Source: a virus. Taken from it: a stretch of DNA of 42,353 nucleotides. A program made the position numbers and the translations under genes. Below, piece by piece: positions 6,692-33,767 of the stretch. Numbering within the stretch: the stretch's first letter is position 1; each line of letters starts with the position of its first letter. The DNA lies in the IMG/VR virus record IMGVR_UViG_3300020732_000019, positions 1-42,353 of that record; one strand, given 5' to 3'. The notes under the pieces were generated by a model. The model did not search any database. It saw only the letters and a program-made list of their open reading frames with translations, and was not told the origin of the DNA.

Positions 6692-7035
6692 AGCGTGATC
6701 ACCTGAACGCCCGACGGCGTTGAAAGTTGCACTTGCCCGGTCAGTGTCGAGCCGACCACGGTTAGCACGGCGTTTGCTTCGGTCACACCCGGCACGCGTT
6801 CGGCGGCGGCCTGTATCTGCGCGCGCAGAATTTGCGTCGGCTGGCCAAGGCCGTAGGCTTCGCTAAAATAGGCCACGCCTAGGGCGGTGTTGTAGTAACA
6901 TTCGCCGGCAAATACCCGAATTTCGCTCGCCGCGTCTTGCGCCTGCGCATAGGGTTCGCTGGCAACGGCCCAATTGCCGGCCGCGTCAACGCACAAATCC
7001 CACGGCGTTTGATCCAAGAGCATCGTTTTTGCCAT
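6688..7035 (-). CDS. Baseplate wedge protein, gp25/gpW-like
   Basis: 115 aa, resembling the lysozyme-fold-derived gp25/gpW wedge subunit: an N-terminal LDQTPWDLCVDAAGNWAV motif, an acidic AASEIRVFAGECYY segment, and a core ending in a beta strand pair. It precedes the J-like gene as expected. The ATG at 7035 has no Shine-Dalgarno; it lies at the left edge of the 94-bp divergent repeat, 30 bp from a TATTTT box on the minus strand, as do the minus-strand starts at the two other repeat copies. Confidence 0.88.
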   Translation of the reverse strand: MAKTMLLDQTPWDLCVDAAGNWAVASEPYAQAQDAASEIRVFAGECYYNTALGVAYFSEAYGLGQPTQILRAQIQAAAERVPGVTEANAVLTVVGSTLTGQVQLSTPSGVQVITL

Positions 7036-7129
7036 GGCCCGACAGTAGCACGCGCGCCCGGTCTAAAATAGGGTATTGACGCGGCCGTCAATAGGCGTAT
7101 TATCGGGGGGTCAAGAGGGAGTGCGAATC
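7036..7129. repeat. 94-bp divergent promoter repeat, copy 1
   Basis: This intergenic element is repeated at 10276-10369 and 22730-22823, with identical length between start codons. From left to right it holds GTAGCACGCGCG (7045-7056), TAAAATA (minus-strand -10 candidate TATTTT at 7065-7070), the palindrome at 7074-7093, the + strand -10 TATTAT (7098-7103) and the ribosome site AAGAGGGAG (7113-7121). It drives cassette A on the + strand and probably restarts the baseplate genes on the - strand. Confidence 0.85.
7074..7103 (+). promoter_or_regulatory. Operator-promoter 1: TATTGACG-N4-CGTCAATA with -35/-10
   Basis: The 20-bp palindrome TATTGACGCGGCCGTCAATA (7074-7093) contains the -35 box TTGACG (7076-7081); a 16-bp spacer leads to the -10 TATTAT at 7098-7103. 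A protein bound to the palindrome would block RNA polymerase directly. The -10 lies 32 bp before the ATG, a distance kept in all five rightward cassette copies. Confidence 0.85.
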
Positions 7130-7636
7130 ATGGCGCTGAACACGGTTTTCGAAAAAGAGGTTTGCGGACGCTGCGGCGGGACCGGCCGGTTTAGCTTCAA
7201 CCAGATCGACGGCGACCGGTGTTTCGGCTGCGGCGGCAAAGGTGAAAAGCTGACCAAGCGGGGCAAGGCGGCCGCGCGGTTTTTTCGCGACATGCGGTGC
7301 GTGCCGATCGAACAAGTTAAAGTTGGCGACCGTGTCGAAGTTTCCAGCTTTACCGTCGGCGGCGCGGGTTTTCGGTATTTCGCCGAAGTCGTAAAGGTGT
7401 CCGAACCATGCCGGGGCGGTTCGATCATGGTCGGCGGCGAGTGGCGCGAATTTCAAAACGCGGGGTTCCACACCGAACACCCCAAATACGGCAAAAACGG
7501 GCTGTTCGCTGCGGTCGGTTCGCCTGTTCTGCGCGCGCTTTCCGTCGACGAACACAACGCCCGTTTGCAAGAGGCTTTGGCCTATCAGGCCAGTTTGACC
7601 AAAGCGGGCGAGCCCCGCAAACGGAAGGGAGAATAA
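7130..7636 (+). CDS. DnaJ-type zinc-finger protein, first gene of cassette A
   Basis: 168 aa. ATG 7130 follows the shared leader GAGGGAGTGCGAATCATG; an upstream in-frame extension merely translates the promoter. Residues 12-38 hold two CxxCGGxG motifs (C12/C15 and C31/C34), the arrangement of DnaJ cysteine-rich zinc-binding repeats, but there is no J domain. The rest includes a beta-rich segment (about 55-110) resembling small DNA/RNA-binding folds. A zinc-stabilised protein that binds nucleic acid or host protein is plausible; the function is unknown. Probably expressed early, with the 55-aa zinc-ribbon gene 3 bp downstream. Confidence 0.85.
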   Translation: MALNTVFEKEVCGRCGGTGRFSFNQIDGDRCFGCGGKGEKLTKRGKAAARFFRDMRCVPIEQVKVGDRVEVSSFTVGGAGFRYFAEVVKVSEPCRGGSIMVGGEWREFQNAGFHTEHPKYGKNGLFAAVGSPVLRALSVDEHNARLQEALAYQASLTKAGEPRKRKGE

Positions 7637-9655: not shown

Positions 9656-10275
9656 TGCGTTTCCCCCGCCGCGGTGCTGGCCGCGTCCGACGGTTGCGCT
9701 TGTGCCGCCCCGTTCTGCGCTTGCGCCGCGCTGGCGGGCGCCGCCACGTTCGAAAACGACGTGGTCGCGGTCTGTCGCACGTTGCGCAGATCGATTTCAA
9801 GAACGAGTAGGTAGGCGCCATGATCCGGCGAGGCTTGCCGGCGCATTCCGACGATATTGCAGTTTAGGTAGACGCCGTCGGGCGTCACGACGCTGTAAAG
9901 GTCTGTCGTCTGCCATGCGGATTGCACCGCGCCAAGCACCGCTTGCCGGGCTTCGACCGACCCGCCTTTGGTCGCTATGACGCGGGTGTCGAATGGCCGA
10001 AGCACTTTGTTTGCGGATATGAACCCGCCGCCTTCGACCGGGTAATCGAGAATTTGCGAATCAAGCTGCAATTCGAACGACACGATATTGTCGAAGGTGG
10101 CCAGCGGCGCCCCTGTTTCCGAATAGATACCCCACGACGCGGAAATATCGGCTTGCGCCTGTCGGCCGCTGCCCGACACCAGCGCCGGCGATTGCGGCGT
10201 CGTGCCGCCAAGCGCAGGCCGCTGCACCGCTGGCACGCCGGGGGCGTCGGGAACCGTGGGATATTGCGCGGACAT
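9652..10275 (-). CDS. Dit-like tail/baseplate protein
   Basis: 207 aa. The central part, with FELQLDSQILDYPVEGGGF near 64-82 followed by an RPFDTRVIATKGG stretch, fits the Dit-like N-terminal domain of proteins that join tube to hub. The C-terminus is a low-complexity Ala/Gln tail. The start at 10275 is the left boundary of repeat copy 2: ATG without a Shine-Dalgarno, 30 bp from the minus-strand TATTTT box, as at 7035 and 22729. The tape measure gene precedes it in the late operon, but cassette B is inserted between them. Confidence 0.8.
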   Translation of the reverse strand: MSAQYPTVPDAPGVPAVQRPALGGTTPQSPALVSGSGRQAQADISASWGIYSETGAPLATFDNIVSFELQLDSQILDYPVEGGGFISANKVLRPFDTRVIATKGGSVEARQAVLGAVQSAWQTTDLYSVVTPDGVYLNCNIVGMRRQASPDHGAYLLVLEIDLRNVRQTATTSFSNVAAPASAAQAQNGAAQAQPSDAASTAAGETQ

Positions 10276-10369
10276 GCCCCGACAGTAGCACGCGCGGAAA
10301 ATGTAAAATAGAGTATTGACGCGACCGTCAATAGGCGTATTATCAGGGGGTCAAGAGGGAGTGCGAATC
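10276..10369. repeat. 94-bp divergent promoter repeat, copy 2
   Basis: Same length and organisation as copy 1: GTAGCACGCGCG at 10285-10296, TAAAATA with minus-strand TATTTT at 10305-10310, palindrome 10314-10333, + strand TATTAT 10338-10343, ribosome site, ATG at 10370. Only the GCGGAAAATG stretch between the GC block and TAAAATA, and a few other single bases, differ clearly from copies 1 and 3. Confidence 0.85.
10314..10343 (+). promoter_or_regulatory. Operator-promoter 2
   Basis: Palindrome TATTGACGCGACCGTCAATA at 10314-10333 contains -35 TTGACG (10316-10321); the -10 TATTAT is at 10338-10343 after 16 bp. Drives cassette B. Confidence 0.85.
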
Positions 10370-10870
10370 ATGGTTCAGGTCTGGAAAATCATCGAAGGGC
10401 AGTTGGCCGGAGTGTTCGAAGCGGTCGACGCTGAAAACAAGGCGCGGCTGGTCGCGTGGGGTCTGGAACGGAAAGCCGCGATCGTGGAATTCAAGGCGAG
10501 CGACGAAGGCCGGGCGCTGCGGAAAGATCAATGGGCCTACTACGGCAAGCTGTTTGCTCTGGCCGGCGGGAAGGGCTGGTACAAGGTTTTCAACGACCAC
10601 GGCGAAGCGGGCGTTCAGGCGGCCATGGAAAAACACGCGGAATTGATCGCGGCCGCCCGGCGGCAAAAGATCGCCGCGAAACTGGCGGCGTTCGGGGTCG
10701 GGGAAATCGAAAAAGCGGAATACGCCCGGAGCGCCGACGGGTTTCAGGGAGTGTGGATCGTCCAAAGCGACAAGGGCCGGGTGCGGGTCGAAATCGACGT
10801 GATTTACGCCGGCGGGTACAACATCCAAATCCTGCATCAGCGGGTGTTGGTCAAAGTCAAAATCGTCTGA
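10370..10870 (+). CDS. Uncharacterised cassette B protein, 166 aa
   Basis: ATG 10370 is preceded by the shared leader GAGGGAGTGCGAATCATG. The protein is mixed alpha/beta: a helical first part with KASDEGRALRKDQWAYYGKLF, an Ala/Lys-rich helix (about 85-105) and a C-terminal beta-rich part ending VLVKVKIV. No family recognised. It is the first gene of an operon with at least three more genes; a UUCG hairpin separates it from the next. Likely an early accessory protein. Confidence 0.8.
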   Translation: MVQVWKIIEGQLAGVFEAVDAENKARLVAWGLERKAAIVEFKASDEGRALRKDQWAYYGKLFALAGGKGWYKVFNDHGEAGVQAAMEKHAELIAAARRQKIAAKLAAFGVGEIEKAEYARSADGFQGVWIVQSDKGRVRVEIDVIYAGGYNIQILHQRVLVKVKIV

Positions 10871-10877
10871 AACAACC

Positions 10878-10895
10878 GGCGCCCTTCGGGGCGCC
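10878..10895 (+). other. UUCG-tetraloop hairpin between cassette B genes
   Basis: GGCGCCC-TTCG-GGGCGCC: a 7-bp GC stem closed by C(UUCG)G, an exceptionally stable RNA hairpin. No U tract follows, so it is not a classical terminator. It lies 7 bp after a stop codon and about 8 bp before the next ribosome site. The same hairpin recurs at 23040, 23362 and 24416. Confidence 0.75.
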
Positions 10896-10914
10896 ACATT
10901 CGGGAGTGCGAATC

Positions 10915-11115
10915 ATGGTTCAGGTCGGGCAAGCGAGCGAAGGGCTTTTTGAGGTTAGCGCCGCATGGATGAAAGCGTGCGGGCGCGGCGATCAAGCCCG
11001 CGTGTTCCCCGTCGTCCGGTCGTGGATGGCTGGCCATTTGCCTTTTGTGGCGGTTCGGCTGGACGACGGCCGGGAATGGGAATTGTGCGCCGAATGGCGC
11101 GGTCGGTTCGTGTAA
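10915..11115 (+). CDS. Uncharacterised cassette B protein, 66 aa
   Basis: ATG 10915 follows CGGGAGTGCGAATC, the same initiation sequence as the promoter-proximal genes. The first five residues (MVQVG) echo those of the preceding gene (MVQVW), so the two gene starts may share ancestry by duplication of the leader and first codons. The middle has VAVRLDDGREWEL, a beta-hairpin-like stretch. Function unknown. Confidence 0.7.
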   Translation: MVQVGQASEGLFEVSAAWMKACGRGDQARVFPVVRSWMAGHLPFVAVRLDDGREWELCAEWRGRFV

Positions 11116-21647: not shown

Positions 21648-21953
21648 TTAGCTGGCGGTCACGACCGACGACGTATCGGGCGCAGCGGCTGGGTAGCCCC
21701 GATCCGGCGCCGGGTCGACCAGCGCGGCGACGGGGGTAGTCGGGTCGATCGCCGTAGCGACCGCGTCGACCCGTTCGGCCAGCGCTTCGATCGCGGCCGA
21801 TTCGTCGGCCGGTCGGAAATCCGCGGCACGCTTGGCCGCAAGTTCAAGCGCCGCAACCGACGCGGTCAGTTTATCCAAAGCGACAGACATAAGCGTTCCT
21901 CTCCACACAAGTAGACCCAAGGCGGCGCACAAAACGACGACGGACGTATTCAT
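21648..21953 (-). CDS. Small coiled-coil protein with two possible in-frame starts
   Basis: 101 aa from ATG 21953 (ATGA overlap with the MuF gene stop), which would give an N-terminal membrane helix (about residues 3-17). A second ATG at 21890 has the better ribosome site (GGAGAGGAACGCTT) and gives an 80-aa soluble protein beginning MSVALDKLTASVAALELAAK, a type common in phage genomes. The two starts could yield membrane and soluble forms, or the first may be unused. The C-terminus is Pro/Ala/Val-rich. Function unknown. Confidence 0.65.
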   Translation of the reverse strand: MNTSVVVLCAALGLLVWRGTLMSVALDKLTASVAALELAAKRAADFRPADESAAIEALAERVDAVATAIDPTTPVAALVDPAPDRGYPAAAPDTSSVVTAS

Positions 21954-22729
21954 TCGAACCCCGGCACGATCGGCACGGCCACACAACGGCAATTAATGGC
22001 CGTGCCGGGCCATACCACGCCTTCGCCGTTTTGAAAATCATGGCCGCGCGCCAGATCGAACGTCTTGCCGCTGAACGCGACGTGTTCCGGCCGCGGTTCC
22101 CGACCGCCGCCACTGTGCAACCATTTCGCGCGGGTGATTCCAACCTCAAGCGCGCGGGTGCGGACCATTACCGCGGTCGCTTTGTTGTTCTGGTCGCGCG
22201 CAATGAACGCTGCGCGCCTCTTGGTCACGCCGGTTCGTTTTTGCAGTTCCTTGGTCATTGTGCCAAGATCACGGCCGGTTTGAACCGACTGCATCAAAAC
22301 CGTGCGCACTTGCGTTAGGTGCTGTTCCGCGATCGAACGAATCAAGCCGACGTTTTCGTCGACCACGGCGTCGAAGGCGTCGCGCATGGCGGCCGTCGGT
22401 TTGAACCGCACCGTGAACCCGGCTTTGCGCAATTGCACCTGCAGTTGCCGTTGCGTGCGGTCTTGGTGCGACCGCGCGAACCAATTCGCCATTTGTGGCG
22501 CCAAGCGGTCGAATTTGGCGCGCCAGCGTTCGGCCAGCTTGTCGAAAGCCGCCTGCAGCGATTCGGTGCCGGCGTCCTGAACGATCGTCGCCGGCTGGTT
22601 TGCGCGGTAGGCGGCCCGCAACCAATAGCCGATCGATACGGCCATTTCGTCGACCAGCCGCGTTAGCTTGCGCTGGTATTCGTCGCCAGTCGCGACGACC
22701 GGGCGAATTGGGGTGATCGGGGGCGGCAT
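21950..22729 (-). CDS. Phage head morphogenesis protein (Mu F-like minor head protein)
   Basis: 259 aa. The C-terminal half has the MuF signature: RTGVTKRRAAFIARDQNNKA near 164-183, then TRAKWLHSGGGREPRPEHVA and the Cys/His-containing end (ENGEG-like QNGEGVVWPGTAINCRCVAV). It follows the portal gene functionally, although cassette C separates them. ATG 22729 lies at the left edge of repeat copy 3, lacks a Shine-Dalgarno and is 30 bp from the minus-strand TATTTT. Minor capsid component, often packaged and sometimes injected. Confidence 0.9.
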   Translation of the reverse strand: MPPPITPIRPVVATGDEYQRKLTRLVDEMAVSIGYWLRAAYRANQPATIVQDAGTESLQAAFDKLAERWRAKFDRLAPQMANWFARSHQDRTQRQLQVQLRKAGFTVRFKPTAAMRDAFDAVVDENVGLIRSIAEQHLTQVRTVLMQSVQTGRDLGTMTKELQKRTGVTKRRAAFIARDQNNKATAVMVRTRALEVGITRAKWLHSGGGREPRPEHVAFSGKTFDLARGHDFQNGEGVVWPGTAINCRCVAVPIVPGFE

Positions 22730-22823
22730 GGCGCCATGGTAGCACGCGCGCCCGGCGTAAAATAGAGTATTGACGCGACCGTCAATAGGCGTATTCTGGT
22801 GCGGTCAAGAGGGAGTGCGAATC
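22730..22823. repeat. 94-bp divergent promoter repeat, copy 3
   Basis: Third full copy: GTAGCACGCGCG at 22739-22750, minus-strand TATTTT at 22759-22764, palindrome 22768-22787, + strand -10 TATTCT at 22792-22797, shared leader and ATG at 22824. The spacing between divergent start codons is again 94 bp. The downstream part (TATTCTGGTGCGGTCAAG) is shared with the two partial copies at 23705 and 24681 and differs from copies 1 and 2. Confidence 0.85.
22768..22797 (+). promoter_or_regulatory. Operator-promoter 3
   Basis: Palindrome TATTGACGCGACCGTCAATA at 22768-22787, -35 TTGACG (22770-22775), 16-bp spacer, -10 TATTCT (22792-22797). Starts cassette C. Confidence 0.85.
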
Positions 22824-23033
22824 ATGAAAATCATCGGTCAAGTTTTCGCCAGTGCCGCCGCGGCCAAGCGCGGCCTTGAAGCGGCGGGCTACGCGCTGGT
22901 TCAGCGGGGCGGGTACTCGTGGTTTGAGAAAGCCGGCGCGGCCGACGTCTATATCGGCGAACGGCACATCGAATGGAAAGGCGGCCACCAGTGGGAACGG
23001 TTGCCCGGCCGGGTGATTTGCGCGGTTCAGTGA
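22824..23033 (+). CDS. Uncharacterised cassette C protein, 69 aa
   Basis: ATG 22824 with the shared leader. A compact alpha/beta protein: an N-terminal strand and helix (IIGQVFASAAAAKRGLEAAG), then GGYSWFEKAGAADVYIGERH and a final strand. The helix-then-strand layout resembles other short cassette proteins (for example the one at 11131). Function unknown. A UUCG hairpin follows. Confidence 0.75.
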   Translation: MKIIGQVFASAAAAKRGLEAAGYALVQRGGYSWFEKAGAADVYIGERHIEWKGGHQWERLPGRVICAVQ

Positions 23034-23039
23034 CCAACC

Positions 23040-23057
23040 GGCGCCCTTCGGGGCGCC
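23040..23057 (+). other. UUCG-tetraloop hairpin, cassette C
   Basis: GGCGCCC-TTCG-GGGCGCC, identical to the hairpin at 10878, seven bases after a stop codon and before the ribosome site AAAGGGAG. No U tract. Confidence 0.75.
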
Positions 23058-23078
23058 ATATCAAAGGGAGTACCAGTC

Positions 23079-23354
23079 ATGGCAGGATTTTTCGGCGGAA
23101 ACCCGGACGTTGCGCATTTTTCGGTTCAGGTGCGGCGATATGATTCGGACGGTAAAAAGCGGTCGCGCGCCGAAATCGCGGCCGATCGCGAAACCTTGAA
23201 AGCCGCCGGGTATCTGGTTTCGCAACAGTTCAGTTTCCACACCAACAACTCCGGGGCCCGGGCAATGGCGAAGGGACGGGCCGACGCTGCGGCCGCCAAG
23301 ATCATGGCGTACGCCGGCGTGTCCATGGACGTGACCGAAGGCGCCTACCTGTAA
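23079..23354 (+). CDS. Uncharacterised cassette C protein, 91 aa
   Basis: ATG 23079 with AAAGGGAG upstream. The sequence is polar: a first strand region (DVAHFSVQVRRYD), a charged helix (KKRSRAEIAADRETLKAAGY) and a helix with many Ala (GARAMAKGRADAAAAKIMAY). No family recognised. It sits in the same transcript as its neighbours, bounded by UUCG hairpins on both sides. Confidence 0.75.
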   Translation: MAGFFGGNPDVAHFSVQVRRYDSDGKKRSRAEIAADRETLKAAGYLVSQQFSFHTNNSGARAMAKGRADAAAAKIMAYAGVSMDVTEGAYL

Positions 23355-23361
23355 TTCAACC

Positions 23362-23379
23362 GGCGCCCTTCGGGGCGCC
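23362..23379 (+). other. UUCG-tetraloop hairpin, cassette C
   Basis: Third identical GGCGCCC-TTCG-GGGCGCC element, between a stop codon (23354) and the ribosome site of the next gene. Confidence 0.75.
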
Positions 23380-23398
23380 ACATTCGGGAGTGTGGAAA

Positions 23399-23704
23399 AT
23401 GGAAAAGACCGCGCGCAAGGTTAACGGGGTCGAATACGGATTAGTCCCTAGCAGTCTGCCCGCGCCGATGGACGACTCGCATTGGGACGGCGGCCCGCTT
23501 GGCGGGATCGTCGTGCCGATCGTTTTCGACGGCCTGCCCAACGGATACCGGGTTCAGTTGCCGGGCACCGCCATTTCATTTTCCTATTTTCACGACGCGG
23601 CAATTTGCGCGCAGCGCCGCCAACGCCACCAATACGAACAAGCGCTAAAACGAGTCGCCGACTACGAAGCGGCGCTGCGCGTTCACAGAGATCGAGCGAT
23701 TTAG
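23399..23704 (+). CDS. Uncharacterised cassette C protein, 101 aa
   Basis: ATG 23399 is used because CGGGAG lies nine bases upstream; a GTG at 23390 is in frame but falls within the ribosome-site region. Sequence features: a beta-rich first half (GGIVVPIVFDGLPNGYRVQL) and a charged C-terminal helix rich in Gln and Arg (AQRRQRHQYEQALKRVADYE). The stop TAG is followed after one base by the next operator palindrome. Function unknown. Confidence 0.75.
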   Translation: MEKTARKVNGVEYGLVPSSLPAPMDDSHWDGGPLGGIVVPIVFDGLPNGYRVQLPGTAISFSYFHDAAICAQRRQRHQYEQALKRVADYEAALRVHRDRAI

Positions 23705-23705
23705 G

Positions 23706-23735
23706 TATTGACGCGACCGTCAATAGGCGTATTCT
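23706..23735 (+). promoter_or_regulatory. Operator-promoter 4, internal to cassette C
   Basis: Palindrome 23706-23725 with -35 TTGACG (23708-23713) and -10 TATTCT (23730-23735). Identical to operator-promoter 3 through the ATG at 23762, but the leftward half of the 94-bp repeat is absent. The palindrome begins two bases after the preceding stop codon. Confidence 0.85.
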
Positions 23736-23761
23736 GGTGCGGTCAAGAGGGAGTGCGAATC

Positions 23762-24055
23762 ATGGAATACCCCGCCGATGTCCGCGCCAAGATCGAATGG
23801 GCCGCCTATCAGGCCGCCGACGCCGCGTGCGACGCCGCGTGCCGCGAATTCCAGCTTGCCCAATACGCTTTGGGCCGGAGCAAGGCCAAGGCGGTTCGCG
23901 AAGCTTTCGCGGCCGCCGCGGCGATCCACGCCGACGCTTGCGCAGCGATCCACGCCGCGCGCGACGCATGGGAAGCGGCCGAAGAGGCGATCGATGCCGC
24001 CGCAATCGAAGCGGCCGCGGCGGCCGAAGCTGCGCTTCAATTCGAATTGTTCTGA
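23762..24055 (+). CDS. Alanine-rich helical cassette C protein, 97 aa
   Basis: ATG 23762 with the shared leader. About 40% alanine with regularly placed Glu, Arg and Lys; predicted to be nearly all helix (DVRAKIEWAAYQAADAACDA, then EAAEEAIDAAAIEAAAAAEA). Three cysteines (C23, C27, C62) lie on the helices. It could be a helical-bundle or coiled-coil adaptor that titrates a host protein, but there is no family match to support that. The start of a second transcription unit inside cassette C. Confidence 0.7.
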   Translation: MEYPADVRAKIEWAAYQAADAACDAACREFQLAQYALGRSKAKAVREAFAAAAAIHADACAAIHAARDAWEAAEEAIDAAAIEAAAAAEAALQFELF

Positions 24056-24409: not shown

Positions 24410-24415
24410 CGCCCC

Positions 24416-24431
24416 GCGCCCTTCGGGGCGC
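24416..24431 (+). other. UUCG-tetraloop hairpin, cassette C
   Basis: GCGCCC-TTCG-GGGCGC (6-bp stem), a slightly shortened version of the other three, seven bases after the stop codon at 24409 and before CGGGAG. Confidence 0.7.
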
Positions 24432-24452
24432 CACAAACCGGGAGAATCGACC

Positions 24453-24680
24453 ATGGAAATCGGCCAGCGTGTTTTTGTCCGCCACCCGGATTACCCGGGC
24501 GTTCTGACCTGCGGTGTCGTTGTCGCGATCGGCAAGCGCGGCCGGCCGCAAGTGCGCTATCGGTTCGCTGCGGCACGACTCGAAACGTTCGACCCCCGCA
24601 ATCTGGAACCGGTCGACGATTGGCGCGACCATTTCACCGACCCGGCGGCCGCGCTAATCGACCAGTCTTTGCACGATTAG
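24453..24680 (+). CDS. Uncharacterised cassette C protein, 75 aa
   Basis: ATG 24453 with CGGGAG upstream. The first half looks like a small beta barrel of SH3/KOW type (GQRVFVRHPDYPGVLTCGVV, then RPQVRYRFAAARLETF), a fold common in nucleic-acid or ribosome-binding proteins. The C-terminus is acidic. The stop TAG is followed after one base by operator 5. A role in binding nucleic acid is inference from the fold guess only. Confidence 0.72.
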   Translation: MEIGQRVFVRHPDYPGVLTCGVVVAIGKRGRPQVRYRFAAARLETFDPRNLEPVDDWRDHFTDPAAALIDQSLHD

Positions 24681-24681
24681 C

Positions 24682-24711
24682 TATTGACGCGACCGTCAAT
24701 AGGCGTATTCT
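24682..24711 (+). promoter_or_regulatory. Operator-promoter 5, internal to cassette C
   Basis: Palindrome 24682-24701, -35 TTGACG (24684-24689), -10 TATTCT (24706-24711), ATG 32 bp downstream at 24738. Same sequence as operator-promoter 4. Confidence 0.85.
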
Positions 24712-24737
24712 GGTGCGGTCAAGAGGGAGTGCGAATC

Positions 24738-25475
24738 ATGGAAAACGTTGTCAGTCTGGCCGCATGGAAAGACGCCAAGCGCGCCGCCGCGATCGCGGCC
24801 GAACACGAAGCGGCCAAGCGCCAAAAAGTCGTCGGCGAAAAGATCGAAGTCGCCAAAGCGCTGTTGGACGAAGGGGTTTGCAAGAGCGTCGCGCAAGCCG
24901 CGGTCGTGGCCAGCGCCATGGTCGAAAAGGCCAACGCGATCATGGAACGCGACTGGCGGCCTATGCCCGCCTATTGCGACCCCGCGAACGAATCGCGCGG
25001 CGCCAAGTATGACGCGACCAAGTCGCTTGATGTCGCCGAAATCGCCAAGCGTATGCGGGCCGAAATCAAAGCGCTAAACCTGCGCGCCGGGTTCAAGATC
25101 AGCGTCACCATTCAACGTTTCAGCGGCGGCCGGTCGATCGATATCCGCGTTCGTGAGGTTCCCGCCGATTTCCGCTACTGGTCGGACGCGGCCGCCAGCT
25201 ATGAAAAGCAATTCGGCGCGGGCTGCGGCGGCGGTTTGTGGCGCTTCCCCGGCGGCCCCAAAGACCAGCACAGCGCAGAATATATCGACGTGGAAAGCAA
25301 ACTTGAAGCGATCCACGGGGCCTATAACCGCGACAATTCCGACAGCATGTCGGACTATTTCGACGTTCGCTATTACGGGTCGGTCGGCTTTGACGGCGCT
25401 TGGCAAGCACTGAAAGACGAAGCGGCGGCCAGCGCCGGCGACTATTGGTCGGAATCGGCCGACCCCAAACGCTAA
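24738..25475 (+). CDS. LPD29-like domain protein, cassette C
   Basis: 245 aa, the largest cassette protein. An N-terminal charged helical segment (KDAKRAAAIAAEHEAAKRQK near 11-30) is followed by a domain (about 95-235) with LDVAEIAKRMRAEIKALNLR, then FKISVTIQRFSGGRSIDIRV, resembling the LPD29 domain of large polyvalent proteins of phages and mobile elements. Those domains travel with anti-defence and injected proteins; their activity is unknown. It has its own operator-promoter. A related domain is also found as stand-alone proteins in other phages. Confidence 0.72.
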   Translation: MENVVSLAAWKDAKRAAAIAAEHEAAKRQKVVGEKIEVAKALLDEGVCKSVAQAAVVASAMVEKANAIMERDWRPMPAYCDPANESRGAKYDATKSLDVAEIAKRMRAEIKALNLRAGFKISVTIQRFSGGRSIDIRVREVPADFRYWSDAAASYEKQFGAGCGGGLWRFPGGPKDQHSAEYIDVESKLEAIHGAYNRDNSDSMSDYFDVRYYGSVGFDGAWQALKDEAAASAGDYWSESADPKR

Positions 25476-25528: not shown

Positions 25529-25714
25529 ATGGGAAAAATGGTTTACATCGAAAGCAAAGACGGCAATCTTTTCCGCGGCTATGGGCGCGGAAATCCGGTC
25601 GAACGCTGGGACGACAACGGCCGCCAGTTCGTCAAATACGAAGGGGGCCCAAAACCCGAAGGCTGGGGCGACGTGATCGACGCCGCCCGCGCCCTTGAAT
25701 TGATGAACGTCTAA
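25529..25714 (+). CDS. Uncharacterised cassette C protein, 61 aa
   Basis: ATG 25529 with GAAAGGAG upstream. Small, strongly polar: MGKMVYIESKDGNLFRGYGR, then a Trp- and Gly-rich part and a final helix (DVIDAARALELMNV). Its TAA overlaps the portal gene's stop codon on the other strand by 4 bp (25711-25714), closing cassette C. Function unknown. Confidence 0.75.
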   Translation: MGKMVYIESKDGNLFRGYGRGNPVERWDDNGRQFVKYEGGPKPEGWGDVIDAARALELMNV

Positions 25715-28311
25715 GACATCGATTCCCACGCTTTGCCGTAGATTCGCTTTTGCGTTTCGACGGCCGACGCGTGGGAATCGATGTCTTCGCGCGACCAATC
25801 GTCCGTCGGGCCGTCCGTCTCGTACTTAGCGTTCAGCGATCGTTCGACTTCGTAATAATGGTGCGCTTCGGCTTTGGCGGCCAGCATGGGGATCACGTTA
25901 AACTGCAGTTCGGCGACCATGCCGTTCGGCAATTCAACCAGCGTGTTAAAATCGCGGTATCCGGTTGGCCCCGGTTTTGCGTAATTGTTTTTCGGGTCGG
26001 AAATGAATTTCAACCCGGATTTTTTGACTTTTTCAACCGCTTCGCCAAGGTCATCAATTCGTTCGACCGCGATCGTCGCGCGCACCATATCCTTTAGCTG
26101 CGAATAGTCGCCGCCATAGTCCGCTTCGACTTTTTCGCGGCCACGCTTTTCTGATTTGGTCGGTGCAAGGAAAAGCGCCGACCCTTTGTACTCGGGGGTC
26201 AGGTCAGCAGGCTTTGGCGGTGATAGATCGAACCCCATCGTTCTCCCGATTTGAGTCAGGATTTTGTCGTATTCACGTTGACCGACCGCGGCCATTTGCG
26301 CGGCCTGTTCCCATGTGCTGAACGGTTGGTGCACCTCTTTGGGCGACGGCAAAGACCCGGGCGCGGGCAATGCCCGCGACGCCCGCGCGACCGCTTCGGT
26401 GCGTGCGCGTTCCTTCGTCGCGCTGGCGTGCGTGCTGGCCGCCTCTTGCGCACTCCCCGCGCCGCTTTTTGCAAGACGTGCCGCGATGACGTTTTCCAGC
26501 GCTTCGCGTGCTTTTACGGCGGTTTTGGCTTCCGGTCGTGAATCTGGAAAATCGGGTTCGATGCCAACAAATCGACGGTTGCCCCAATTCGAAACGTTTC
26601 CGACGCCTTCGTTACGGCCGTTAAACAGGTTGTGGCCGCCGTCGCGATCGGGTTTCCAATAGTGGCCTGACGCGGCAAGCGAAAAATTACCAGCGGCGAA
26701 TCGGCCGCCTTCGTCGCGCGGGTGATCTGATTCGTTCCACTGCGCGTCGCCGGCGATCCGATCGGGGCGGCCGCCCGGTTCGCCGGCCGCGTCGTCCATG
26801 CCGTCGGCGCCCCCCTCAAGACCGGGCATTTCGGGCGGCGGCCCGGACAGGTCGACCCCGTGGTACAGCGACGTTTCGTCGTTCTGCAGGCGTTCGCGCG
26901 CTTCTTCTTGCGATATGATTCCGCGGTCGACATAAGCCGCGTCGCAATCCGCGTCGGCTTTTCGAATGTCGGCTTTTTCCTTGTCCGACATTTCCCAAAG
27001 CGACGGGAATTCAAAATCGATTTCTTCGTTGATCTCGCCAAATTCGGAAAGCTGCACCAGCCGCAAAATGCGGGTAAGCGCCGGCCGAAAGTGCGCTTCT
27101 TGGTACGCCAAAACGTCGGCGTAAAAATTGCGGGTTTCGTTTTCGCCGTTCGCCGACAGGCCCGACGGCGAATTCTGCGCATAGATCGATTGCGGGATTC
27201 GCGCGGCGACGCAAATTTGTTCGATCGCCTGCGCGATCAGTTCCGCAACGCCCGATATGGGGGTCGTGACAAACGCGAAATCTTCTTCGCCGTTATCGAG
27301 TGCCAGCACGCCCCGATTGTTCCGAGTGTTCTGAAAAATTTCGAGTCGCTTGTAAAAATCGTCGCCGCCGTCACCCGACAGGATCGCTGACAGGTCAGAT
27401 TTCAGCACCGGTTGACTGTGCATGTCGAAAAGGTCCGACCCGCTTTGCCGGGTGCGCAACCAGTTATCGACATATGCTTTCATCACCTGAGTCAACGACT
27501 GGCCGCCGAACGCGTATGCTGGTTTCAGCATGTCCGACACGGGCCGACTGACCAGCGTCAAAAGCCGGCTGGCGTCGATCGTGCGCCCATAGCAAAACCA
27601 GTGCTTCGGGCGGTAGAAATCCGGCGACAAGGGGTTGTCGGCGCGATACGGGCCCGGAGCGCACCAGAAAGGTTCGATAATCGTCAAGCGCTGCAATGGG
27701 CGATCTTTGCCCACCTTCGCCGCGTCGTCGGCCAGCGGCCGGGTCAGTTCGACCGGGTTGTCATTGTCGCCGAAATCAAGGAACAGTTGCCCGCGGCCGA
27801 ACACGTGGTCCTGCATCGCCCATCGGTAGAACATGTGGCGCACGTCAAGGCGCTTGAACGCCTTTTCGAGTAGGGTCTTTTTGGACCCCGGGCCGTCGCC
27901 GGCGTTCGTGAATTTGATCCATTTGCGAATCGCGTGTTCCGCCCAAATATGGCACGCGTTGCGATATTCGACGCGCTGAATCAATTCGGCCAGATAGGGG
28001 TAGCCAAGGAACCCTTGGCCTTCGTGGTAAAGCGATTGCATCGCCCAAGTGCCCACGTTCAGGCCGCCCCAATCGCTTGCCGCGTCCATGGCGACCGTGT
28101 CGCTTGGGTAGACCCCCGACGGGAACCGGTAGGGTTTATAGATCGATTCGGCGTCCATGACGATCGGCGCCGGCACGTTGCGTCGGGCGAGCCGGCTGGC
28201 CAGCACCGCGGATTCGGAAACCTTCAAAGGCGCCGACGGCACGGTATAGGCGCCCGACGCGGCCGCCGCTGCGCGTTCCGATAGGCGGTAGCCGTTCATG
28301 GTTCGTGTCAT
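25711..28311 (-). CDS. DUF1073-type portal protein with C-terminal RelA/SpoT-like domain
   Basis: 866 aa. Residues about 60-500 match DUF1073 portals (GTWAMQSLYHEGQGFLGYPY near 86-105, NACHIWAEHAIRKWIKF near 118-134, FVTTPISGVAELIAQAIEQI near 340-359). A linker contains the DHPRDEGGRFA motif frequent in phage polyvalent proteins. The end (about 716-825) resembles a RelA/SpoT nucleotidyltransferase: EKVEADYGGD (726-735), KDMVRATI (740-747), GYRDFN (784-789) and AELQF (800-804), followed by an AHHYYE helix. Other DUF1073 portals carry Acb1-like C-terminal enzymes; no Acb1 HxT motifs are present here. Starts at ATG 28311, overlapping the terminase stop (ATGA). Confidence 0.85.
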   Translation of the reverse strand: MTRTMNGYRLSERAAAAASGAYTVPSAPLKVSESAVLASRLARRNVPAPIVMDAESIYKPYRFPSGVYPSDTVAMDAASDWGGLNVGTWAMQSLYHEGQGFLGYPYLAELIQRVEYRNACHIWAEHAIRKWIKFTNAGDGPGSKKTLLEKAFKRLDVRHMFYRWAMQDHVFGRGQLFLDFGDNDNPVELTRPLADDAAKVGKDRPLQRLTIIEPFWCAPGPYRADNPLSPDFYRPKHWFCYGRTIDASRLLTLVSRPVSDMLKPAYAFGGQSLTQVMKAYVDNWLRTRQSGSDLFDMHSQPVLKSDLSAILSGDGGDDFYKRLEIFQNTRNNRGVLALDNGEEDFAFVTTPISGVAELIAQAIEQICVAARIPQSIYAQNSPSGLSANGENETRNFYADVLAYQEAHFRPALTRILRLVQLSEFGEINEEIDFEFPSLWEMSDKEKADIRKADADCDAAYVDRGIISQEEARERLQNDETSLYHGVDLSGPPPEMPGLEGGADGMDDAAGEPGGRPDRIAGDAQWNESDHPRDEGGRFAAGNFSLAASGHYWKPDRDGGHNLFNGRNEGVGNVSNWGNRRFVGIEPDFPDSRPEAKTAVKAREALENVIAARLAKSGAGSAQEAASTHASATKERARTEAVARASRALPAPGSLPSPKEVHQPFSTWEQAAQMAAVGQREYDKILTQIGRTMGFDLSPPKPADLTPEYKGSALFLAPTKSEKRGREKVEADYGGDYSQLKDMVRATIAVERIDDLGEAVEKVKKSGLKFISDPKNNYAKPGPTGYRDFNTLVELPNGMVAELQFNVIPMLAAKAEAHHYYEVERSLNAKYETDGPTDDWSREDIDSHASAVETQKRIYGKAWESMS

Positions 28312-29939
28312 TGCCGTGCCCGCGCTAGTGCTTTGTCGCTGATAACCATGCGACGCTTGGCGCCGCTAATGACGATCATAGCCGCGTCTGCGAGGTTTGG
28401 CGAGCGCGTGCCGTCGGGCTTTTTATTGACGACCATTTTGCCTGTCGCGTCGGGCCCCCAAGTCGGTTGCGACAGTTCAGAAATCAGCTTGTTGCGCAGC
28501 GTCGCCGGGATAGACGACGATATGCTGATAATGTCGGCGGGGTCGTATTTATAGCCCGGTTCAGTGCGCGCCCGAAAGGTTTCGCGAAACCGCCGGCGCG
28601 TGCGCCCCCACGATTGCGCCTTGAAATTCTTGTAATAGTCTTCGTTCGTGCGATCGGCGCCGGGTTCGATCGGCTTCGTGCCGTGTTCGACCGCGCCCGA
28701 TCCGCGGAACGGGTTTATCGCAACCGAGCGCGGCACGCGCGAATTGCGAACCGCGTCGGCCTTGCGCTGGCGGTTGATTTCGGCCGCGTCGCCGCGCACC
28801 CCGGCGCCCATACCGTCGGCGTCGTACCAAAGGGTCGACAGGTCCAATTCGTCGCATAGGCCGAACGACTTGACCGTCGTGTGAAAAATATCCGATCCCA
28901 CGCCCGACCATTCCGACAGGAAATCGAGCACGCACCCTTTCATGCTGGCGAAGGCGTTCAGGTCGACGCCTTCGTCGGCGACGTCAAGCGCGGCCAGCCG
29001 TTCGCCGCTGTCAGTCAACCCTAGGGCCAAGTGCGAGTCGATTGCCGCCTGAACCCACGAATTCGGAATGATCACGCCTTCGACAGCCGCGGCATAATTG
29101 ATGTCGATTTCCTGCGCGACCGTGACCGGGTCCAACTGCAAAATCTGTTTTTCGTACCAAGCGTCGTCTTTGCGCGGGTCGTCGCGCCAATGCAGCGTGA
29201 ACACTTGCCGGGCGGGGTAGCTGAACCGCTTTTGCGCGAAGGGGTTGCCCATGCCGTTAGCGCTGGAAATATCAATTCGGCAATTCGTGGTCGCCGACAG
29301 CGACGCTTCGACCAGTTGCGGCCGTTCAAGGTGCGCGGATTCGTCGACGAAATAGATCGACGCGCGATCGCCGCGCCCGATATTGTCGCCAGCTTCCCCG
29401 GTGATCGTCGACCCGGTCGTCGGGAACGCAAGGCGCAAGTGCGGCGCGTGAATTTTCGGGTCGTGGCCGGCGCGCAGTTCCGCCGGCAAAAACCGCAGGA
29501 ATTCGCGCGCTTTCCAGAAAAGCGATTTCGGCGAACCGATCTTGTCGACGTATTCTTCTTTGCGCGACCCAAACCCCGCGGTGAACCCGTAATGCGTGAT
29601 CGCTAGAGAACAGGCGACCGCGACAGCGCACCACGACATGCCAAGATCGCGGGATTTGTCGGTAACGCCGGGTTCTTGCGCTTTCCAGCGCTCCAAAACC
29701 CACTGACACCATTCGATTTGCCGCGGAAACAGGATGAACGGAATCGCCGCCGGCAACCCGCGTTCGACGTTGCGCGGGTCGAACGTGACGCCCCAATCCT
29801 GAATGAGGCGCCACGGTTCGTCCCGATAGACCCGCAACACCTGCCCGGGTAGCTTAGGATCGTCCCGCAACCGCTGCAGGCGCCGCATCCGGTCTTTGAT
29901 GACCGCCGAGTAATCCGGTTGTTTCCAATCAAATTCCAC
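28308..29939 (-). CDS. terL: Terminase large subunit
   Basis: 543 aa, packaging ATPase and nuclease. ATPase motifs: a Walker A-like KSRDLGMSW at 95-103 (the K-x-R-x-x-G-x-S form common in phage terminases) and Walker B SIYFVDE at 194-200 with D199 and E200. The RNase H-fold nuclease carries D319 (LAALDV), D373/D375 (WYDADG) and D518 (PNLADAA). It is coupled to the portal by ATGA overlap, and the small terminase lies upstream beyond the fibre genes, an unusual separation. Two bases separate it from the stop of the secreted-type protein. Confidence 0.95.
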   Translation of the reverse strand: MEFDWKQPDYSAVIKDRMRRLQRLRDDPKLPGQVLRVYRDEPWRLIQDWGVTFDPRNVERGLPAAIPFILFPRQIEWCQWVLERWKAQEPGVTDKSRDLGMSWCAVAVACSLAITHYGFTAGFGSRKEEYVDKIGSPKSLFWKAREFLRFLPAELRAGHDPKIHAPHLRLAFPTTGSTITGEAGDNIGRGDRASIYFVDESAHLERPQLVEASLSATTNCRIDISSANGMGNPFAQKRFSYPARQVFTLHWRDDPRKDDAWYEKQILQLDPVTVAQEIDINYAAAVEGVIIPNSWVQAAIDSHLALGLTDSGERLAALDVADEGVDLNAFASMKGCVLDFLSEWSGVGSDIFHTTVKSFGLCDELDLSTLWYDADGMGAGVRGDAAEINRQRKADAVRNSRVPRSVAINPFRGSGAVEHGTKPIEPGADRTNEDYYKNFKAQSWGRTRRRFRETFRARTEPGYKYDPADIISISSSIPATLRNKLISELSQPTWGPDATGKMVVNKKPDGTRSPNLADAAMIVISGAKRRMVISDKALARARQ

Positions 29940-31712: not shown

Positions 31713-33767
31713 TCAGCTAACGACGACAGAAAAACGACGCGGCATTATGTATTGCAAAAATTTCTGCAAAGTCAAAACGCCCGAAACCGCTTGCCCGTAC
31801 TGGTTGCCGTGGGTCGTGTCGACCGTGTACCCGGCGTTCTGGTACTGCGCAGCGAAAGTTGCGCCAAGGTCGATCAACACGACGTTCGTATCCCACGGGT
31901 TCGCGGTCTGGTAGGCGGCCACGCCGGCCAAAAGAGCCGTAACATACGCCACGTTGTAGCGCGGCGCGTACCGCAGACCAAAAGGCATGATAATGCCGAT
32001 CACGGCGGTAGGCGCGGCCGCGCGGGCGGCGGTGATGAACCCGATAATCGAAGCGGTCATGTCAGACGTCGACATGCTGTAAATCGCTTCATTCGTTCCG
32101 AAATTGACCAGAATCCCGGCCGGCGGCGTGTAAAGCGCGCCATAGCTGGAAAGCTGGCCGTTTGCATCAAGCCGCGAAACCCCGCTGTCGATTTTGTTCC
32201 ATCGGCTTGCCGCGTCGCTGTAGACGCCGCCAGATACCGAATACCACGCGGGAACGTCCCCCGCGTTGTCGCCAGCGTGCAACCAGCCCGAAAAACCGCA
32301 GGCGTCGACCCCGGTGTCGAACCCCATCTGGTCGAGCCCGCGCATGATATAATAAACGAAACTTTGAAGCGACGTGTTTGGGCCGACCCCTTCGGCGTTG
32401 CTGTCCCCCGCCAGCAAGACCCACGGGTTTGGCGCCGGCGCGGTTCCCACGGTCGACGCGCTGTCGATGATCATGCCTTGAATCTGAACGACGTTCGCTG
32501 CGTTATTCCAGCGCGCGGCGTAAGGCGAAGACCGAAGACGGACAATAATCGTGTTAACCGCGTTGGCGGTAACCCCCTGAACGGCAATATTGCCCGATGC
32601 GACCGCAATATTGTCGTAAAGAACGCCATTGATTTCATAAGAAACATAGCAACCCGACGACGACGCGGGAATTTTGATATAAGTTTGGGGCGCCGACGAA
32701 GCCAACCACGTGAACATGAACCACGCGCCGTTCACCCACGATTGCCGATACGCCGAACCGCCGCGGCCCGTGTCGCCTTTCCAGTTCCCGGGCGAGAATT
32801 TGAACCCGGCCGACGTGACCGGAATCGTTACCGCGGTCGCCGCGACATACGTAAGCGACGCGGGGTTGGTCAGGGACGACCCGTTTGTGACCGAAATCGT
32901 CTTCGAACCGTTGGTCGCCGGGGTGTAAGTGAATGTGGCGGTCTGAAAAACCGGTGTGAGCGTAACAGACGTCGGGGTGAATGTGCCGCCGCCGCCGCTG
33001 TCCGACGGGGTGACGACAATGCTTGTTCCCGAATAAATCGTATTGTTAACGCCGACCGTGAAATTGCTTGACGCCGATCCGGTCAGGCCATTGGTCGGCC
33101 CGGTCAACGTAACGGCCGTCGCTGCGGCCAAGGTGTTGTAGATTTTCAAGCGCGACACGGCCGCGCTGGTCGTCGTGGCGGTCTGATAGATGAAAATCGA
33201 CGGGTAGCCGGGGGCATTCTGCAGCGCCGGGCTACTGTCGGTAAGAGTGGCCGTGGCGCCGATTTGAGTCACACCATCGGATTGGAAAAGCGCCGCAGTA
33301 ACCGTCGTCGTGGTGCTGTTGGTCTGCACAACGCTTGTGCGCAGCATGTATGTCGTGCCGTTTGTGAGCGCGGCAAGCGCGACGATCGGATTGACAACGA
33401 CGGTGCTGCTAAGAACGGTCCCGATTTTGATTTGGCCGCTGTTCAGCACACCCGCCAGATACGCCGTAGCGTTGCCCGCCGGCCCTTGCGTGCGGTGCGC
33501 GTGCCAGATCGCCGACGCCGCGTCGCTGCCTGCCACGAAATAGGTGTCGATTTGCGTTTCGAGCGCCGGCGCACCCGTGACGCCAAGCAACGCCGTATTC
33601 CACGGTGAGCCGGCCAAAAGAGCCTGTTTAAGCTGGTTCGACGCGTTTACCGACCATTGCGAACCATAGATATCGATCCACCCGTTACCGCCGACCGCAC
33701 CGGGCGAAGCGCTCGCCGCGATAGGGCCGCCAGTCGGCGAAAAATCATTGATCAGCGTAAAAGCCAT
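31713..33767 (-). CDS. Tail spike/fibre with SGNH hydrolase domain
   Basis: 684 aa. The N-terminal 300 residues are beta-rich with Ig-like repeats (PTNGLTGSASSNFTVGVN, then FTYTPATNGSKTISVTNGSS). The C-terminal 240 residues are an SGNH/GDSL esterase: block I LLAGDSNAEG with nucleophile S456, block III FGTNEAIY with G557 and N559, block V DTTHGN with D650 and H653. Such domains on spikes deacetylate or otherwise trim capsule or O-antigen before adsorption. GGAG lies nine bases before ATG 33767, just behind the preceding stop. Confidence 0.88.
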   Translation of the reverse strand: MAFTLINDFSPTGGPIAASASPGAVGGNGWIDIYGSQWSVNASNQLKQALLAGSPWNTALLGVTGAPALETQIDTYFVAGSDAASAIWHAHRTQGPAGNATAYLAGVLNSGQIKIGTVLSSTVVVNPIVALAALTNGTTYMLRTSVVQTNSTTTTVTAALFQSDGVTQIGATATLTDSSPALQNAPGYPSIFIYQTATTTSAAVSRLKIYNTLAAATAVTLTGPTNGLTGSASSNFTVGVNNTIYSGTSIVVTPSDSGGGGTFTPTSVTLTPVFQTATFTYTPATNGSKTISVTNGSSLTNPASLTYVAATAVTIPVTSAGFKFSPGNWKGDTGRGGSAYRQSWVNGAWFMFTWLASSAPQTYIKIPASSSGCYVSYEINGVLYDNIAVASGNIAVQGVTANAVNTIIVRLRSSPYAARWNNAANVVQIQGMIIDSASTVGTAPAPNPWVLLAGDSNAEGVGPNTSLQSFVYYIMRGLDQMGFDTGVDACGFSGWLHAGDNAGDVPAWYSVSGGVYSDAASRWNKIDSGVSRLDANGQLSSYGALYTPPAGILVNFGTNEAIYSMSTSDMTASIIGFITAARAAAPTAVIGIIMPFGLRYAPRYNVAYVTALLAGVAAYQTANPWDTNVVLIDLGATFAAQYQNAGYTVDTTHGNQYGQAVSGVLTLQKFLQYIMPRRFSVVVS

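Follow-up and report, generated by a model that had tools for sequence, protein, structure and literature searches.

Why should the portal protein of a phage continue far beyond its structural core, and what might the domain at its end be for? The question is raised by the window analyzed here, the whole 42,353-base stretch of IMG/VR virus record IMGVR_UViG_3300020732_000019, in which an open reading frame (ORF) at positions 25711 to 28311 (minus strand) encodes a portal of 866 amino acids. A preliminary description had recognized a DUF1073-type portal with about 350 residues past its core and had noted RelA/SpoT-like motifs between residues 716 and 825, and the present analysis bears out both points. 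Residues 109 to 457 matched Phage_portal_3 (PF06381) in Pfam (E = 1.2e-72; 245 bits, above the gathering cutoff of 33.8 bits), a match to the portal family phrog_146 in PHROG reached residue 514 (E = 3.3e-98), and residues 658 to 866 were confirmed to be a RelA/SpoT-type synthetase domain. We consider it fairly probable that these last 209 residues are a toxic small-alarmone-synthetase cargo, one of several that are interchangeable, and that the protein is a portal-borne polymorphic toxin with a cognate immunity protein.

Taken by itself, the portal C terminus matched the Pfam family RelA_SpoT (PF04607) below threshold (E = 1.3e-4; 22.7 bits against a gathering cutoff of 27 bits, which is a detection threshold and not a biochemical trait). 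Relatives of the domain were collected using alignment-based scans of viral contigs and one genome scan; single-sequence searches yielded few. The resulting RelA/SpoT homolog (RSH) family alignment and profile comprised 15 sequences, with relatives 37 to 49% identical in the alignment used, and 14 of the 15 members matched RelA_SpoT (best E = 2.9e-9). Using phmmer, the portal domain was found to match Tas1, a type VI secretion system (T6SS) toxin, with an E value of 1.1e-6, while the 15-sequence profile matched Tas1 at 1.3e-10, with the next match far behind at 9e-4. The AlphaFold model of the domain had a mean predicted local distance difference test score (pLDDT) of 91.9 and a predicted template modeling score of 0.85. 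RelA/SpoT-family synthetases and Tas1 were its top Foldseek matches (best E = 7.6e-9), and an unrelated fold was not seen. The VIA Z score to SAS2/RelP was 15.8 (root mean square deviation of 2.5 over 166 residues), with scores of 14.3 to Tas1 (26% identity), 13.1 to an exported Streptomyces enzyme, 12.9 to CapRel, 7.4 to DNA polymerases, and 6.9 to FaRel2. Because the Tas1 matches, the RelA_SpoT matches across the family, and the high-confidence structural matches are decisive, the RelA/SpoT identity of the domain is beyond chance.

The motifs lie where they had been noted before: APTKSEKRGREKVEADY at residues 716 to 732, KDMVRATI at 740 to 747, GYRDFN at 784 to 789, and AELQFN at 800 to 805. 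Residues K719, R723, K727, D741, R744, T746, Y785, E801, Q803, and H817 were invariant across the 15-sequence alignment; the tyrosine, glutamate, and glutamine that the preliminary description had named as catalytic are among them (Y785, E801, and Q803). The predicted catalytic residues K719, R723, K727, D741, Y785, E801, and Q803, whose roles we take from established knowledge of RSH synthetases, align with those of Tas1, and the later motifs also align with 3l9d. Judged from these alignments, the active site looks intact.

Signatures that separate adenosine from guanosine 3'-pyrophosphokinases are RYT versus AVR in syn2, GxN versus SxH in syn3, and YH versus IR in syn4, with the caution that the three motifs are by themselves insufficient to set specificity (PMC12226406). 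The window domain has R-A-T, D-F-N, and F-N at syn2, syn3, and syn4, respectively, most relatives have R-A-T, D-L-M, and I-H, and Tas1 has R-N-T, G-V-N, and V-N in the alignment. Housekeeping synthetases have A-V-R at syn2 and I-R at syn4. The guanosine set AVR/SxH/IR is absent from the window domain and occurs in none of the relatives. These residues point to an adenosine substrate, and to a (p)ppApp rather than a (p)ppGpp synthetase, with a confidence that was kept at moderate because of the caution cited above.

A feature absent from the preliminary description adjoins the domain. A 61-amino-acid gene (25529-25714, plus strand) converges with the portal gene such that the two stop codons overlap by 3 bp, and it has a good ribosome site (Shine-Dalgarno sequence ggaaaggag). 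Co-occurrence was counted over 14 distinct close-family RSH sequences in fetched loci, and in all 14 a member of the small-gene family lay within 150 nucleotides of the RSH domain; the lone small gene without an RSH domain in the fetched loci sits at a contig end. No credible match to the small-partner profile was identified in 80 related portal loci that lack RSH. The profile matched one of 399 genomes of one order, which is a genome with a close RSH relative, and in the phage collection the small partner was found only in Bordetella phage vB_BbrM_PHB04. The window has the small gene and the RSH gene on opposite strands, and all relatives have the two on one strand; fixed inherited gene order therefore does not explain the pairing. 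The predicted structure is a compact five-stranded domain (pLDDT of 92). From its genomic association, the 61-amino-acid protein is probably the off-switch, or immunity protein, of the synthetase, and its family is a candidate immunity family absent from the literature texts compared. Expression of the small gene independently of the late genes is suggested by its opposite strand and a sigma-70-like promoter.

PHB04, which is represented by two records, was also the only phage in the collection to carry a related domain. Its RSH domain ends the 493-amino-acid gp034, which is encoded directly downstream of an unrelated portal and is followed by the 69-amino-acid gp033, the small-partner homolog, and then by the HD hydrolase gp032. 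By its matches to PF13328 (E = 3.3e-21) and, best among solved structures, to HD domain-containing protein 3/MESH1 (E = 4.6e-36), the latter is a small alarmone hydrolase of the MESH1 type, and such a hydrolase lies directly behind the small gene in most PHB04-like loci; a homology search of the window for gp032 identified no homolog. The PHB04-like arrangement is a two-protein version of the portal-RSH unit. An RSH match was found in only 2 of the 399 genomes of one order, and a nonphage relative, an Azospirillum plasmid gene (L110), has no small partner. PADLOC returned no match for the portal, the small protein, PHB04 gp034, or the hydrolase. The RSH carrier of PHB04-like phages (L002, 9254-10735, and relatives) starts with an unclassified region (GDHVYVHH...HGKHGVTV) that is doubled in several members and has no PHROG match. 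A distant relative, L126 (3577-7997), has two RelA/SpoT-like proteins in one locus, one with a very long charged repetitive tail behind it.

The RSH-bearing protein has Phage_portal_3, not MuF, at its N terminus and terminates with the synthetase domain at residue 866; it has no C-terminal antitoxin domain, the partner being a separate gene. The junction of the RSH cassette lies at an HPRDEGGRF motif, and HPR..xG[RKQ]F-like stretches also come before swapped C-terminal domains in other portals. The G+C content of the cassette is 54.4%, compared with 60.8% for the portal core. For comparison, the C termini of the 80 closest portals in viral contigs were read. Most end shortly after the core, and the extended siblings carry Zeta_toxin, ADPrib_exo_Tox, Acb1, NUDIX, PBECR1, PBECR3, or GNAT domains at or above Pfam curated cutoffs, in agreement with the earlier statement that DUF1073 portals carry variable C-terminal effectors, including Acb1. 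Two of the 10 portal extensions from one scan had no Pfam match, and none of the 80 nearest portals had an RSH domain.

The most informative sibling is L030 (contig L028), which has the same gene order as the window, with identities of 74% for the terminase, 63% for portal residues 4 to 541, 51% for the gene at 24738 to 25475, 69% for MuF, and 62% for DUF2213. Homology ends at portal residue 541, and L030 differs from the window in the portal C terminus, which is a zeta toxin, and in the small gene. This difference is what toxin-cassette exchange would leave. A constant portal carrier with exchangeable C-terminal toxin domains, as in polymorphic toxin systems, is found in these portals. The features of the locus are collected in Table 1.

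Table 1. Features of the portal-RSH locus and its surroundings in the window
Feature	Coordinates	Strand	Basis or remark
MuF head protein without toxin extension, conserved downstream flank (69% to L030)	21950..22729	-	PF04233, E = 2.4e-14
Predicted sigma-70-like promoter TTGACG-16-TATTCT, proposed start of the unit ending with the small partner gene	24684..24711	+	One of five leader copies in the window
First gene of the presumed unit with the small partner	24738..25475	+	L030, the relative with a zeta toxin, has a homolog (51%) in the corresponding position
61-amino-acid small partner gene, proposed immunity protein	25529..25714	+	Homolog of PHB04 gp033
RelA/SpoT-type synthetase (small alarmone synthetase) domain, residues 658-866	25714..26340	-	Sequence profiles, predicted structure
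Linker, residues 539-657, without assigned family	26341..26697	-	No match in Pfam
Junction motif WNESDHPRDEGGRF, residues 525-538	26698..26739	-	Sequence shown directly
Portal core, residues 1-541, Phage_portal_3/DUF1073 family	26689..28311	-	Pfam, PHROG, identity to L030
Large terminase, conserved upstream flank (74% to L030)	28308..29939	-	Terminase annotation of DNA matches

Zeta-toxin domains end the DUF1073-type portals of L030, L062, L071, L106, L061, and L067, with small ORFs at the portal 3' end. The ORFs of L062, L071, and L106 resemble one another, and that of L030, which encodes 53 amino acids, is convergent; these are possible further portal toxin-immunity pairs, a hint less well supported than the RSH pair. 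The portal extension of L081 (C terminus from 6441) is about 600 amino acids long and includes a GNAT domain; visual inspection also suggests a stretch like that of an HExxH metallopeptidase.

If the domain is a toxic cargo, it would use ATP to pyrophosphorylate a nucleotide at its 3'-OH, the substrate most likely being ATP or ADP and the product (p)ppApp, a reaction that would drain ATP and halt growth. The 61-amino-acid protein would bind and silence the synthetase, so that the producing cell survives an active toxin on every portal subunit. Because portal C termini face the capsid interior, the domain may be packaged with the virion and act in the next cell, through proteolytic release or exposure at DNA ejection. 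A fuller version, which we advance tentatively and hold to be clearly less probable than the general reading, has the portal ring itself as the toxin carrier: about twelve covalent synthetase domains would lie inside each capsid and be freed or switched on at DNA ejection, the inhibitor, made from a separate opposite-strand promoter, would shield cells that already express it against incoming virions, and the whole would serve as a strain-against-strain weapon in which the portal C terminus and its convergent neighbor are swapped as a cassette.

Several points weigh against a portal-borne toxin. Only the window contig was found to have the portal-fused form, and every other related domain found sits on a nonportal protein. 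Syn3 of the window domain is D-F-N and differs from the G-x-N of Apk enzymes. For the small protein, comparison with solved structures by sequence and fold gave no convincing match (best Foldseek E = 0.58; best VIA Z = 4.5, with mostly Sm-like matches), a result that still allows for a relation. In L123 and L124, which are more distantly related, a small-partner-like tail is fused behind the synthetase (hhalign probability of 93%; P = 2.3e-7), and L012 may have one also; such a fusion is unusual for a diffusible immunity protein. Fused antitoxins do exist, for example, in CapRel. The weakest step is the route of a covalently portal-held domain into the cytoplasm. Possible internal starts for a free RSH domain are weak candidates (GTG 660 and ATG 673), neither with a well-spaced ribosome site, and a start at ATG 673 would truncate helix 1 of the modeled domain. 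Activity, toxicity, binding, and delivery are all matters that we infer from sequences and predicted models.

The alternative that fares best, though we would give it rather long odds, is that the domain actively synthesizes alarmones to help the phage take over its host in its own cycle, slowing host transcription or translation or altering nucleotide pools, and does not serve to fight rivals; its activity would be timed or dampened by the small protein. The anatomy would be the same, and the genes scanned in the window include those for DNA polymerase and primase but none for an integrase, so that a lysogen-protecting role is not evident. Iyer and colleagues propose such a role for the RelA/SpoT domains of phage proteins that are injected (PMC5512222). 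However, an unregulated maker of (p)ppApp or (p)ppGpp late in infection should hurt phage production, and the hydrolase in relatives reads as detoxification.

Somewhat less probable still is an inactive synthetase domain whose role in the portal is structural or one of nucleotide sensing, with the small protein as a minor head component or assembly partner. The portal is itself a structural protein, and the fused tails of L123 and L124 suit a structural partner equally well as an inhibitor. Against this, all predicted catalytic positions are kept in 15 divergent sequences, unrelated enzymes occupy the same site on sibling portals, and most sibling portals manage without an extension.

We rate as unlikely that the domain pyrophosphorylates tRNA in the manner of FaRel2 and CapRel, blocking translation and making no alarmone. 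Several toxSAS enzymes work in this way (PMC11559606), and CapRel is among the structural matches; however, FaRel2 is a poor match, the best sequence match, Tas1, is a (p)ppApp synthetase, and the presence of a MESH1-type hydrolase next to relatives speaks for a nucleotide product. That the fusion is a metagenomic assembly artifact, as its occurrence in a single contig and the lower G+C content of the cassette might suggest, is very improbable, since portal and domain share one uninterrupted reading frame, the cognate small gene stands at the very end of the fusion, and the independent contig with L030 has conserved genes on both sides of another cassette at the same point.

The preliminary description had also suggested a possible action against host alarmone- or CapRel-type defense. 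Nothing found here supports that role, and it was set aside; the conserved small partner and the MESH1-type hydrolase in relatives point to a toxin needing restraint and not to an enzyme directed against defense.

Upstream of the small gene, the product of the first gene in the presumed plus-strand unit has a weak match to a PHROG family described as released from phage upon host infection (E = 3e-6) and also matches phrog_10415 (E = 8.5e-12). The leader of this unit is one of five plus-strand copies of up to about 100 nucleotides each (7033-7133, 10273-10373, 22727-22827, 23665-23765, and 24641-24741). In each, the -35 box of a sigma-70-like promoter is covered by an inverted repeat (TATTGACG-CGAC-CGTCAATA), and the ribosome site is common to the copies; every copy precedes a small plus-strand gene abutting structural genes; the five leader-bearing genes are possibly one co-regulated accessory set. 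A short hairpin, GGCGCCCTTCGGGGCGCC, is repeated between consecutive plus-strand accessory genes (10873-10918, 23035-23080, and 23357-23402, plus strand, and at about 24411-24440). In the block upstream of the terminase, a 684-amino-acid protein (31713-33767, minus strand) has a GDSL-like lipase/acylhydrolase domain slightly below the Pfam cutoff.

Alarmone-synthetase toxins are known on T6SS, type VII secretion system, and MuF carriers. The system closest in layout is Apk2-IapK-Aph1, in which Apk2 enzymes are MuF-(p)ppApp synthetases of prophages, characterized with two immunity proteins (PMC12226406). It shares with the window a phage head protein that ends in a domain of the alarmone-synthetase fold, an adjoining small nonenzymatic gene, a location in the DNA-packaging gene block, and adenosine-like syn2 and syn4 motifs. 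Its order of toxin, small gene, and hydrolase is that of the PHB04-like relatives, whereas no hydrolase was found in the window. The carrier of Apk2 is MuF; that of the window is the portal, with MuF a separate gene without extension. The small gene of the window, which lies on the opposite strand, is likened to IapK by gene layout. Tas1-Tis1 (Apk1), the (p)ppApp synthetase effector system of Pseudomonas aeruginosa, provides the best sequence match, and Tas1 shares with the window domain the motifs AP.KS..RA..K, D.(A/V)R.TI, GY, and E(I/L)Q(V/F)N. It differs in its PAAR carrier and T6SS delivery, and the window small protein has no sequence match to any solved immunity protein. The toxSAS enzymes (FaRel, FaRel2, PhRel, and CapRel) share the synthetase fold, a small or fused partner, and, in some, a hydrolase as an extra antitoxin, but they are not known on portals, and the structural match is weak to FaRel2 and moderate to CapRel; in CapRel the antitoxin domain is fused C-terminal to the synthetase, a fusion that the window protein lacks.

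The preliminary description had suggested a new form of injected or assembly-linked effector. In the available portions of the source texts (PMC5512222, PMC3482391, PMC5576092, and PMC9503650), RelA/SpoT domains are published on MuF head proteins and phage polyvalent proteins, and portal fusions are published for 2H, PBECR, InPase, ART, and NUDIX domains; RelA/SpoT on a portal is not described there, figures aside. The principle is thus established, and the novelty that stands is the portal-fused RelA/SpoT domain. Effectors fused to a portal or to MuF, together with polyvalent proteins (2H/Acb1, PBECR, InPase, ART, and NUDIX), share with the window a C-terminal effector on a head protein that is presumed to be packaged and injected, and the window has a candidate cognate small gene, which the available text does not describe for the published portal-fused effectors (PMC5512222 and PMC9503650). 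The biological role of MuF toxins has been described as unknown (PMC11699363). The position and copy number of the portal in the virion are known, and a toxin built on it makes the action of head-borne toxins testable; small genes at the portal 3' end offer a route to further portal toxin-immunity pairs. Set beside these systems, what is new here is a known toxin class on a different carrier, the portal.

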